Below the pieces are notes generated by a model that saw only the letters and a list, made by a program, of their open reading frames with translations, made no database searches and was not told the DNA's origin. Positions 2,727 to 45,252 of a stretch of 64,000 bases of DNA are shown here, piece after piece. Every line of letters begins with the position of its first letter. The stretch's first letter is position 1. Position numbers and translations under genes: made by a program. This DNA comes from Paracoccus sp. (in: a-proteobacteria) (GTDB lineage Bacteria; Pseudomonadota; Alphaproteobacteria; Rhodobacterales; Rhodobacteraceae), in NCBI RefSeq assembly GCF_030538655.1, contig NZ_JAUNTO010000001.1, positions 248,001-312,000 on the forward strand. Direction: 5' to 3'.

Positions 2727-3380
2727 TCACCCGTTACGATCACCGCGCGCCATCGCCCGGCTAAGTTGTGCGGCAATCTGCGCATGACTGCGCTGGAACC
2801 CCGCCACATCGGGGGTTGATACGTTGACAGTGACATTCACCGCCCGCCCCCCTGACCCGGCAGCCACGCCCAGCCGCCCATCAGGCCCGCGCTGCAAGGG
2901 CATGATCGCCTCTGGCCCCGCCTCGCCCATCAGGCCCGTTGCGCCGCGCATCGGAAAATAGGTCGGTGCGCTGACCACACCGCCCTTGGCGAACGGCATC
3001 ACCCGCCCTTCGGTAAAAGCGCCGCCCTTGGCGAAAGGCGCAGCACCCGACAACATCCCCGCAATGCCGCTCGACAGCGCCCCCGACAGCGCGTTTTCAA
3101 CTGGCTTCATCGCCATGGAAAACGCCGTGTCCGCCATGCTGCGTGCAATGCCCTTTAACGCATCCGATAGCTTCAGCCCGTCCAGCGCGACCCCCTGAAA
3201 CGCCCGGCTCAGCCCGCTACCCAGCCCCGACGCCAGCTTGTCCACCTCGCGCGAGGTATAGGCCGCCTGATCCCGCAGCCGCGCCATTTCCGCCTGAAAC
3301 TCCGCTGTCACCCGGCTGGCCTGCGCGCCCGCCTGATCCCAGCCGTCGAAATCGTCATCGAACCGGTTCGCATCCGCCAT
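2727..3380 (-). CDS. GTA gp11, tail tape measure protein
   Basis: A 217-residue tape measure protein. The N-terminal third is helical and polar (TAEFQAEMARLRDQAAYTSR), the middle is a hydrophobic, glycine/alanine-rich helix (ALSGALSSGIAGMLSGAAPF) and the end has the repeated AKGG motifs (FAKGGAFTEG, FAKGGVVSAP) and GEAGPEAIMPL that mark the lambda-type tape measure C-terminus. It is very short compared with phage tape measures, in keeping with the short tail of GTA particles. It lies 29 bases after gp10.1, and its last bases carry the gp12 ribosome binding site. Confidence 0.92.
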   Translation of the reverse strand: MADANRFDDDFDGWDQAGAQASRVTAEFQAEMARLRDQAAYTSREVDKLASGLGSGLSRAFQGVALDGLKLSDALKGIARSMADTAFSMAMKPVENALSGALSSGIAGMLSGAAPFAKGGAFTEGRVMPFAKGGVVSAPTYFPMRGATGLMGEAGPEAIMPLQRGPDGRLGVAAGSGGRAVNVTVNVSTPDVAGFQRSHAQIAAQLSRAMARGDRNG

Positions 3381-42882: not shown

Positions 42883-42981
42883 GATGAAGGAAAAAATTCA
42901 TACTCTCGCACTATTGGCACGCGGTGGACCTGTCGCTAGGGTTGCGCTGATTGCATGACAGTCTTCGCGGGAACAGAACCC

Positions 42982-43902
42982 ATGGATTGGGACAAGTTAC
43001 GGATTTTCCACGCGGTTGCCGATGCGGGCAGCCTGACCCACGCGGGCGATGTTTTGCATCTGTCGCAATCCGCCGTCAGCCGCCAGATCCGCGCGCTTGA
43101 GGAATCGCTGGGGACAACGCTGTTCCATCGCCACGCACGCGGCCTGATTCTGACGGAACAGGGCGAATTGCTGTTCGACGCAACCTCGTCAATGGTGCGC
43201 AAACTGGAAACAACTTCCGCGAGAATCAAGGACAGTGAGGAACACGTATTTGGCGAACTAAAGGTGACGACGACGGTGGGTTTCGGCACGCTGTGGCTGG
43301 TGCCCCGGCTGTCGAAGCTGTATTCGCGCTATCCCGATCTGAAAATCGACCTGCTGCTGGAAGAACGGGTGCTGGACCTGCCCATGCGCGAAGCCGATGT
43401 CGCCATCCGCATGAAAGAGCCGCAGCAATCCGATCTGGTGCGTCGCCGCCTGCTGAACATCCGCATGCAACTGTTCGCCACCCGCGCCTATCTGGACAGC
43501 GCCGGGGTGCCCGACCGGCTGGAGGATCTGGCCCCGCACCGGCTGATCTGTCAGCAGCCTTCGACACCGCAGGTCTCGGCCGGGGCGGTGCTGTCGCACA
43601 CGCTGTTGTCGCATAATGTCAGTTCGACGCTGATGGTGAACAACTATTTCGGGGTGTTGCAGGCGGTGCTGGCAGGGGTGGGGATCGGTGTGCTGCCGGA
43701 TTATCTGACCGCCGATTTCCCCGACCTTATCCGGGTATTGCCGGACATAGAATCAGTCGAGGTTCCCGTTTTCCTGGCCTTCCCCGAAGAACTGCGTCAG
43801 TCCCGGCGCGTGACCGCCTTTCGCGATTTCGTGCTGGAGGAAATTCAGGCCTATCGCCGCAAGCAGGTCGAATCGGATGCGATCCGCGATACAGTCGATT
43901 GA
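42982..43902 (+). CDS. LysR-family regulator
   Basis: A 306-residue LysR protein. The N-terminal helix-turn-helix is KLRIFHAVADAGSLTHAGDV and LHLSQSAVSRQIRALEESLG; the effector domain begins about residue 90 (LKVTTTVGFGTLWLVPRL) and contains READVAIRMKEP. I use the ATG at 42982 (MDWDKLR) because the family begins there; a start at 42955 adds nine residues. It is divergent from the indolepyruvate oxidoreductase and a T-N11-A palindrome lies between them, which suggests local control. Confidence 0.94.
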   Translation: MDWDKLRIFHAVADAGSLTHAGDVLHLSQSAVSRQIRALEESLGTTLFHRHARGLILTEQGELLFDATSSMVRKLETTSARIKDSEEHVFGELKVTTTVGFGTLWLVPRLSKLYSRYPDLKIDLLLEERVLDLPMREADVAIRMKEPQQSDLVRRRLLNIRMQLFATRAYLDSAGVPDRLEDLAPHRLICQQPSTPQVSAGAVLSHTLLSHNVSSTLMVNNYFGVLQAVLAGVGIGVLPDYLTADFPDLIRVLPDIESVEVPVFLAFPEELRQSRRVTAFRDFVLEEIQAYRRKQVESDAIRDTVD

Positions 43903-43992
43903 GACAATTAACTTTTATTTCCGAATCATGCCCTGATCGCCCGGCCCCCACAACCAGCGCGTGTAGCCATTCAGCAACGACATAGGTGCTAT

Positions 43993-44006
43993 GCTGCAAT
44001 TGCAGC
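43993..44006. promoter_or_regulatory. Perfect 14-bp palindrome upstream of the sRNA promoter
   Basis: GCTGCAATTGCAGC is an exact palindrome ending 10 bases before the -35 box (44017) of the small RNA candidate. It has the form of a regulator site placed for activation. I do not recognise the binding protein. Confidence 0.45.
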
Positions 44007-44050
44007 GTGAAATTTCTTGATCCAGCGGCCTGCTGCCCATACATCCGCCA

Positions 44051-44132
44051 AGAGGGTGATAATTGCGCATTCGCGTATCGCCTTCAACCTCCCTGTTGGA
44101 CTATGGCCGGGCTTCGTGCCCGGCTTTTTTTT
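44051..44132 (+). ncRNA. Candidate small RNA with anti-Shine-Dalgarno loop
   Basis: A region of about 82 bases with promoter, folded body and strong terminator. A promoter TTGATC (44017-44022), 16 bases, ATACAT (44039-44044) would start RNA near 44051. The 5' stem pairs GAGGGTGATA (44052-44061) with TATCGCCTTC (44076-44085) at all ten positions, two of them G-T. A second hairpin has stem CAAC/GTTG and loop CTCCCT (44089-44094), complementary to Shine-Dalgarno sequences. A terminator follows at 44106-44132. No open frame with a ribosome site was seen. This matches trans-acting sRNAs with CCUCC loops known in Rhodobacter; the family is not recognised. Confidence 0.6.
44106..44132 (+). terminator. 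Strong intrinsic terminator of the sRNA candidate
   Basis: GCCGGGC (44106-44112), a five-base loop TTCGT and GCCCGGC (44118-44124) are followed by eight Ts (44125-44132). One of the strongest terminators in the window, 204 bases after the LysR stop. Confidence 0.92.
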
Positions 44133-44220
44133 CATCTGCCGGGCGATCACGCCAAGGTGCCTTTCCGCTGTGCAGCGCAGATGGCAAAATGGCAGTAACC
44201 AAAAAACCAATGAGGCAGAG

Positions 44221-45252
44221 ATGATGATGCGGCTGATGCTTGTCACCACGGCAGGTCTGATCTGGGGCGGGGCGGCTTTTGCGCAATCGGGTTGCGGCGG
44301 GCCTGTAACCTTTACGCAGGGTCAGAACAATGCGCTGGTTGGTGGCCGGATCGTCGGCGCCTCGGCCTGCGACTTTCAGTTGAGCGGACAGGCCGGGCAG
44401 CAGTTGTCGGCCCGCATCGCCTCGCAGGGGCAGATCACGGCGCGGGTGATCGCGCCGGTGCAACACGATCTGACCGGGCAACCGTGGCAATTGCCGCAAA
44501 GCGGCGAATATACGGTGCGTCTGGCGCAGAATGCGGATCATGCCGCCATGGGGCAGGCACCACAGTTTACGGTTGAATTCCAGATCATCGGCACGGCCAC
44601 CGCCGCCGCGCCCCCAGCAACCGGCCCCAGCACCAAGCGCCCGCAGGCCCGACCCGCCGGGCGCACGTTCACGCCCCCCGTCGCCCCGGCCGAGCCAGCC
44701 CCCGCCGCGCGCCCCGCCGCCCCTGACAGCGCCGCCGCCACCGCGCCCGCCGCCCGCCCTGCAACCACCGCCGTTGCCGACACGCGTCCGCAGCCGCGCC
44801 CGGCGCAGGCGGCAACGGGAACAGTGCCCGCCGCGCGCCCCGCTGACAGCAGCGCAGCCCCTGCCCCCGTTACCGCCCCCGCGCCGACAGCCGCCAGCAG
44901 CCCCGCCCCGGCAGAAACGGCGGCCGCACCACAGGCCACGCCCGCCGCCAATGGCGCGGCCACCTGCAACCCGGTCGAGCCGCTGGATCGTGGCTCTGTC
45001 GCTGTATCGGGCCGCATCTCCAGCGGCGCGCATTGCGATTATACTGTCACTTCCGTTCCCGGTCAGACGCTGACTCTGGTCATGCCCCGTGCCGATGGCT
45101 TTCGGGTGCAACTGACCGCGCCGACGCAGGCCACGCTGACTGCGGATCAGCCGCTGCCCTTGCCGCAGGATGGTGTGCAGACCGTTCGCATCACCCGCAC
45201 CGGCAGCGGTGCGGGTGATTTCGTGGCGCGGCTGCGGCTGGATATGAACTGA
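44221..45252 (+). CDS. Secreted protein with two beta domains and a Pro/Ala-rich linker
   Basis: A 343-residue exported protein of unknown function. A signal peptide (MMMRLMLVTTAGLIWGGAAF) is followed by a beta domain of about 100 residues with two cysteines (SGCGGPVTFTQGQNNALVGG, SACDFQLSGQAGQQLSARIA). A low-complexity Pro/Ala linker (about residues 125-245) leads to a second copy-like domain (TCNPVEPLDRGSVAVSGRIS, HCDYTVTSVPGQTLTLVMP). The two domains look like duplicated bacterial pre-peptidase-type folds. It begins 89 bases after the sRNA terminator and has AGGCAGAG upstream. The linker would span the periplasm or the surface. Confidence 0.85.
   Translation: MMMRLMLVTTAGLIWGGAAFAQSGCGGPVTFTQGQNNALVGGRIVGASACDFQLSGQAGQQLSARIASQGQITARVIAPVQHDLTGQPWQLPQSGEYTVRLAQNADHAAMGQAPQFTVEFQIIGTATAAAPPATGPSTKRPQARPAGRTFTPPVAPAEPAPAARPAAPDSAAATAPAARPATTAVADTRPQPRPAQAATGTVPAARPADSSAAPAPVTAPAPTAASSPAPAETAAAPQATPAANGAATCNPVEPLDRGSVAVSGRISSGAHCDYTVTSVPGQTLTLVMPRADGFRVQLTAPTQATLTADQPLPLPQDGVQTVRITRTGSGAGDFVARLRLDMN

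Follow-up and report, generated by a model that had tools for sequence, protein, structure and literature searches.

Results

The LysR–sRNA–purL locus

The window analyzed here is a 64,000-nucleotide stretch of a Paracoccus sp. genome. On its forward strand, it carries a LysR-type regulator gene (42955..43902), a predicted LsrB-type operator (43965..43994), an RpoH-like promoter consisting of a −35 element, CTTGAT (44016..44021), and a −10 element, CCCATACAT (44036..44044), and the predicted primary transcript of a SorY-type small RNA (sRNA; 44051..44132). The sRNA comprises a 5′ stem (44052..44085), a single-stranded anti-Shine–Dalgarno linker, ACCUCCCUGUUGGACU (44087..44102), and an intrinsic terminator (44105..44132) made of an 8-bp stem (44105–44125) and T8. 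We take the gene downstream of the sRNA to be purL, and we judge the divergent neighbor of the LysR gene to resemble an indolepyruvate oxidoreductase. Several mechanical ORFs overlap 44051–44132; the indels and pair-keeping changes by which the sRNA loci of relatives vary speak, at the level of sequence, against a coding role. Published work is cited by PMC identifier.

The sRNA is a SorY orthologue

The original prediction had proposed an sRNA gene that it did not recognize, with an anti-Shine–Dalgarno motif and related to the Rhodobacter CCUCC-type sRNAs. The sequence bears out the gene and its kinship, and gene order and sequence together make it a known one. In an Rfam search, 44051–44132 scored 53.2 bits with the SorY model (RF02651), below the gathering cut-off of 111, and 47.1 bits with the SorX model (RF02784), above the cut-off of 46.6; our own model R1, whose training set includes the window sequence, gave 86.1 bits. 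R. sphaeroides SorY has the same gene order (LysR–sRNA–purL), its flanks being 72.9% and 82.6% identical to the window LysR and PurL proteins. SorX of R. sphaeroides sits after an OmpR-like response regulator gene, from whose 3′ UTR it is cut by RNase E (PMC6238624), whereas the gene upstream of the window sRNA is of LysR type. Because the flanks are those of SorY and the SorX locus is a different one, we rejected identity with SorX; judged by its sequence, 44051–44132 is a real small RNA and the Paracoccus orthologue of SorY. Since 53.2 of 111 bits leaves it outside RF02651 as thresholded, the orthologue call rests on locus and sequence. The window shares with R. sphaeroides SorY the core ACCUCCCUGUUGGACU, 5′ stem, terminator, and RpoH-like promoter and differs from it in 5′ stem sequence and model score; with SorX it shares the core CCUCCCUGUUGGA and the terminator, SorX differing in its 3′ UTR origin, its RNase E processing, and its lack of an operator.

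At its cut-off, the SorY model matched in 1 of 295 genomes of the family, at 1632645 in a genome taken as R. sphaeroides 2.4.1, and LysR loci reach the SorX cut-off (26 of the 30 fetched loci above it contain this LysR gene); SorY orthologues of Paracoccus are therefore labeled SorX. The published SorY start, 1,632,642 (PMC6238624), lies 3 nt ahead of that match and two bases short of where pairing in the stem begins; this supports the earlier placement of the transcription start at the beginning of the stem.

We took 80 LysR loci from at least 585 relatives; the loci are termed Rhodobacterales here, some records carrying only the name Alphaproteobacteria. Paracoccus species supplied most of the top matches to the LysR protein, which places the window in this genus. 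The search downstream of the LysR gene that had been suggested for relatives found an CCTCCCTG-type core within 700 nt of the LysR stop in 77 of the 80 loci; in the window, the core begins 185 nt past the stop. Two further loci have the core, one behind a LysR frame that ended early and one ∼1.3 kb further on, for a total of 79/80, and in the single exception (L091) the fetched sequence had no core.

The anti-Shine–Dalgarno motif lies in a linker between two conserved stems

For structural analysis, we used 79 sequences (77 loci, the window, and R. sphaeroides). The 5′ stem and terminator of the window fold at −35.8 kcal/mol, whereas shuffled sequences average −22.45 (z −4.24; 0/200 shuffles as good). 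In alignment A1, which holds 44 of the 79 sequences, visually selected for a 5′ part that could be aligned (35 left out), both sides change in 12 of the 20 pairs of the two stems, and five measures were reached by only 0 to 4 of 500 shuffles; 87.7% of cells pair, falling to 37 to 49% when the partners are slid by 1 to 3 columns. The compensatory changes on which the original prediction had staked itself are present in these relatives, and the 5′ stem and T8 terminator it described both stand. Because A1 was chosen by eye, we repeated the fold test on all 79 sequences: the 5′ stem was predicted in 78 (the exception being L089), and in 68 the average unpaired fraction of the core exceeded one-half. 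None of the 16 linker bases varies among the 79 aligned loci; the locus selection had required 13 of them.

The CUCCCU motif had been placed in the loop of a hairpin. Its anti-Shine–Dalgarno character holds, but the hairpin was rejected: it has a probability of 0.02 in the full-length window RNA and exceeds 0.5 in none of the 79 sequences, and in A1, 7/44 sequences retain one of its pairs and no pair covaries. The motif is instead part of the single-stranded linker. A 50-nt fragment folded alone does form the CUCCCU hairpin, which explains the first reading. The window sRNA holds this one pairing motif only.

The upstream gene is an LsrB/VtlR orthologue

Searched against the PDB, the window LysR protein matched 9hh1 with an E value of 7.2e-77 (next match, 1.8e-28); this entry is the structure of A. 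tumefaciens LsrB (PMC11975290), which is thus its closest relative among solved structures. The two proteins are 43.6% identical (258 bits), and 12 of 14 other LysR genes sampled gave at most 173 bits, the remaining two 231 and 243. A quick tree placed 9hh1 with 68 rows of the class and 16 rows of the window's order, apart from 11 of the 14 other LysR genes; of the three that fell inside the LsrB group, two were the top match within their respective genomes. By these sequence comparisons, the window gene, which shares 73% identity with the one preceding SorY in R. sphaeroides, is an LsrB/VtlR orthologue.

LsrB matches at E≤1e-30 were present in 90 of 142 genomes of the class, two of them in the window's family; we examined the best-scoring 68 of the other 88 (L155–L222), plus L154. 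A thioredoxin-reductase-like active-site pattern lies upstream of the LsrB orthologue in 57 of these 69, as in the described trxB–vtlR arrangement (PMC7486931); the window differs, its neighbor on that side being the divergent gene and not trxB. LsrB has been called unique to Rhizobiales (PMC11975290), against which the orthologues in other orders speak, and LsrB/VtlR has been called conserved in the class (PMC7486931). In the window protein and in 15/15 relatives, V and A take the places of the LsrB redox cysteines C144 and C273, and among class orthologues a cysteine occurs at 144 in 6/68 and at 273 in 0/68; the signal may therefore differ from that of A. tumefaciens LsrB. The window protein has a single cysteine, at residue 199.

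The sRNA has a conserved promoter that looks RpoH dependent

In the window, CTTGAT and CCCATACAT are separated by N14. Across the 79 loci, CTTG is conserved in 97 to 100%, T44040 in 99%, A44041 in 95%, and T44044 in 100%, and the pattern CTTG-N16..22-TAnnT was kept in 77/79 relatives (50 shuffles: mean 0.5, maximum 2), in keeping with the promoter expected ahead of the sRNA. The pattern resembles the sigma-32 consensus. It also resembles the S. meliloti RpoH1 consensus CTTGAA-N16-CCTATAT (PMC8844928), and Pos19, CcsR1-4, SorX, and SorY are reported to be transcribed under the control of RpoE, RpoHI, and RpoHII (PMC8307010). The promoter thus looks, by its sequence pattern, to be of RpoH type; a sigma-70 promoter was rejected because the promoter scan of the stretch found none.

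Many LsrB orthologues of other families are followed by probably related sRNAs

We searched 68 LsrB loci of other families (290,625 bases) with model R1, which derives from 44 relatives of the window. R1 matched at 39 of these loci at E≤0.1 (31 at E≤0.01), once per locus, always on the same strand and 83 to 507 nt downstream of the LsrB stop; 34 of the 39 have [CG]CTCCCTGT, three a weaker form, and two none. Of the 29 loci with no R1 match, three have the strict core. The strict pattern (core plus T-run) occurs in 37/68 loci, three of them missed by R1, and either method finds 42/68. The exact hairpin ACGTCTCCCAGACGT is present in 23/68 loci and the piece CTCCCAGACG in 31/68; the loop of this hairpin, CUCCCA, equals AbcR motif M1 (PMC5461406). 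Seen across L155–L222, there is a widespread LsrB-linked sRNA downstream of the LsrB orthologue with core CCUCCCUGU, often together with hairpin ACGUCUCCCAGACGU, and with 5′ parts that vary between lineages. In the 20 such loci tested, there was no match over any Rfam cut-off; SorX matches below the cut-off lay beside lsrB in 4/16 loci. The Rfam SorX model marked nine places in 24 class genomes, three directly after an LsrB orthologue and six elsewhere.

LsrB/VtlR is the regulator of the AbcR sRNAs in Rhizobiales; for S. meliloti, two papers disagree as to LsrB being the driver of AbcR1 (PMC7486931, PMC8844928). AbcR1/AbcR2 (ar15, RF02345) share with the window locus the position directly after lsrB/vtlR, an LsrB box by sequence, an anti-Shine–Dalgarno motif between hairpins, and transport and metabolism targets. 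They differ in having a CUCCCA motif in hairpin 1 and a second motif, GUUCCC (PMC5461406), whereas the window sRNA has one motif, and the ar15 model has no match among Rfam matches to the window or, at E≤1, to 43700–44400. It likewise gave none in the window's own genome (E≤1e-5) or in 142 class genomes, but 14 controls were equally silent, and we therefore conclude nothing from this empty search. In one order, 17 of the 121 genomes had an ar15 match (E≤0.01), four above the cut-off; of 12 ar15 loci returned, seven have the LysR orthologue (41–48% identity), one a partial match (32%), and four none. In one genome of this ar15-bearing order, taken as Rhizobiales, the LsrB orthologue is immediately followed by two ar15 matches (127 and 119 bits), an arrangement already described for AbcR (PMC7486931). 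R1 gave 14 rows at E≤1 in 17 ar15-derived loci; because the three alignments viewed skip the core, these were not counted as homology, and common ancestry with AbcR rests there on place, operator, and layout. These comparisons suggest that many families of the class share an LsrB-linked anti-Shine–Dalgarno sRNA locus, represented by SorY in Rhodobacterales and by AbcR in Rhizobiales.

A predicted LsrB-type operator lies between regulator and sRNA

In the alignment of the 79 loci, a conserved stretch upstream of the −35 element has the general form AGCCATGC-N7-GCAT and contains the published LsrB/VtlR box, GCAT-N3-TG-N3-T (PMC7486931, PMC8844928). The window copy, AGCCATTC-N7-ACATAGGTGCTATGC, deviates from the consensus at two half-site bases. 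With a matrix built from 74 gap-free rows of relatives, the window row omitted, 43965–43994 was the best site of the 64 kb at 24.3 bits; the runner-up operator-like site, at 1937–1966, scored 15.3. The strict box is found in only 7/79 relatives (shuffle mean 2.0, maximum 6) and the relaxed GCAT-N3-[GT]G-N3-T in 47/79 (mean 3.5, maximum 8), relaxed forms having been chosen after the alignment had been seen.

Applied to the 39 class loci with an R1 match, the relatives' matrix found a site between lsrB and the sRNA in 34 (p≤0.05, 100 shuffles each), and in 29 the top match of the whole locus fell there. The consensus of 28 class sites, AGCCATGCnnnnnnnGCATGGCnG, is palindromic, with the published box as its right half. 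A class-derived matrix made from these 28 sites matched in 75 of the 79 loci (p≤0.05), the operator starting 86 or 87 nt ahead of the start column in 71; its sites were first found with the relatives' matrix, and the two are therefore not independent. R. sphaeroides SorY, itself in the matrix, scored 35.4 bits; SorX (−20.4) and a second sRNA copy in the window's genome (−8.4) are by matrix score without the operator. LysR-type activators usually bind near −65. Before AbcR1, the LsrB box lies at −61 to −49 (PMC8844928). A tight palindrome, TATGCTGCAATTGCAGCGTG (43990–44009), which appears terminator-like in the scan and is present in part of the relatives, overlaps the operator.

Candidate targets

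The linker is complementary to AGGGAGG-type ribosome-binding sites, and takP mRNA is a SorY target (PMC6238624). We compared linker pairing with the nine DctP-domain TRAP genes of R. sphaeroides, starts being taken 60 to 160 nt before the domain; the strongest pairing, −22.8 kcal/mol (next, −17.0), was with a gene that matches PDB 2hzk (title, SmoM) over the 322 residues searched. This 2hzk-matching gene we take to be TakP. The TakP-like gene of the window's genome (66% identical) is paired more weakly, at −15.6, fourth of nine DctP genes (best, −19.2), a difference from R. sphaeroides SorY.

The sequence ACAGGGAGG occurs four times in the window's genome, equal to a reversed control: two sites are sRNA genes, one has no start codon 4 to 15 nt behind it, and one is the Shine–Dalgarno sequence of acnA, which pairs at −19.2 to −20.8. 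Of 31 acnA starts, eight carry an exact copy of this site, and each of the eight belongs to Paracoccus (0/15 outside the genus). The 31 acnA starts average −15.5, compared with −10.1 for 530 mechanical ORF starts, whose 5% point is −17.6 against −19.2 for the window's own acnA; two of the strongest of the 530 are ORFs antisense to the sRNA. These pairing energies are suggestive only, and acnA is tentatively put forward as a possible target of the SorY-type sRNA in Paracoccus.

Discussion

The element itself is a known kind of sRNA. As a whole, the observations are very probably best explained by a Paracoccus SorY orthologue, a trans-acting sRNA of ∼82 nt encoded between an LsrB-type LysR gene and purL, which would be under LsrB-type and RpoH control, act by masking Shine–Dalgarno sequences, and belong to a class-wide LsrB-linked locus. 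An RpoH-type sigma factor would transcribe it under stress, and the neighboring LsrB/VtlR-type regulator, bound to the operator ∼57 to 86 nt upstream of the start, would tune this transcription, probably as an activator. Together with Hfq, the linker would pair with Shine–Dalgarno regions and so silence carbon-uptake and TCA-cycle mRNAs, takP being the published example in R. sphaeroides and acnA the one predicted here.

We considered whether the window sRNA could instead be SorX, cut by RNase E from the 3′ UTR of the upstream mRNA, or simply a stably folded terminator region at the end of the LysR mRNA with no trans-acting role. An RF02784 score barely above the cut-off and a coding gene upstream would fit the former, which is very improbable given that R. 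sphaeroides SorX follows the OmpR-like gene (PMC6238624) and that the window has a conserved promoter of its own and the SorY gene order. The terminator-region reading, if anything slightly less credible still, could draw on the 185 nt that separate the LysR stop from the core and on the strong terminator at the end of the stretch; it does not account for the invariant linker, three of whose bases go beyond the selection, or for the conserved promoter and operator, and SorY has been described as a regulator in R. sphaeroides (PMC8307010).

Two other alternatives concern the wider proposal, and we regard each as unlikely. Some other factor, and not the LsrB-type regulator, might bind the conserved palindromic stretch ahead of the promoter, a predicted operator whose window copy is off consensus at two half-site bases; against this, the stretch holds the published LsrB/VtlR box and adjoins the gene of that regulator across families, and among solved structures LsrB is the regulator's closest relative. 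Alternatively, SorY, the LsrB-linked sRNAs of other families, and AbcR might have arisen independently beside the same regulator. That ar15 and SorY do not align over the core in the alignments viewed, and that the 5′ parts vary by lineage, would agree with such an origin; outside the ar15 group, however, core and terminator do align, R1 finds 39/68 in place (34 with the core), and the operator recurs in 34 of these 39. We consider it reasonably likely that an LsrB-type LysR gene with its own anti-Shine–Dalgarno sRNA under a shared AGCCATGC-N7-GCAT operator is ancestral to many alphaproteobacterial families, with AbcR and SorY as lineage forms; Rhodobacterales would have joined in one promoter the LsrB and RpoH inputs that are split between AbcR1 and AbcR2 in S. 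meliloti, and lost the first pairing motif.

If true, this would join AbcR riboregulation in rhizobia and their kin with SorY/SorX stress regulation in phototrophs, fields studied apart, and SorY would gain a predicted transcription factor. Among the papers available to us, none linked AbcR with SorY or SorX, a link that the original SorY/SorX papers may mention; the available sections of the literature on LsrB, Rhodobacter, and sRNA contained no SorY–LsrB link and named no transcription factor for SorY besides sigma factors.

In the genome of the window, a SorX-model match at C43 (27.7 bits) was dropped because it has no CCTCCCTG core. A second SorY-like sRNA (G000:C29:99681-99760; locus L151, core at 3217) scored 41.9 bits (E 3.6e-6) and lies, without an operator, ahead of an IalB-family gene.
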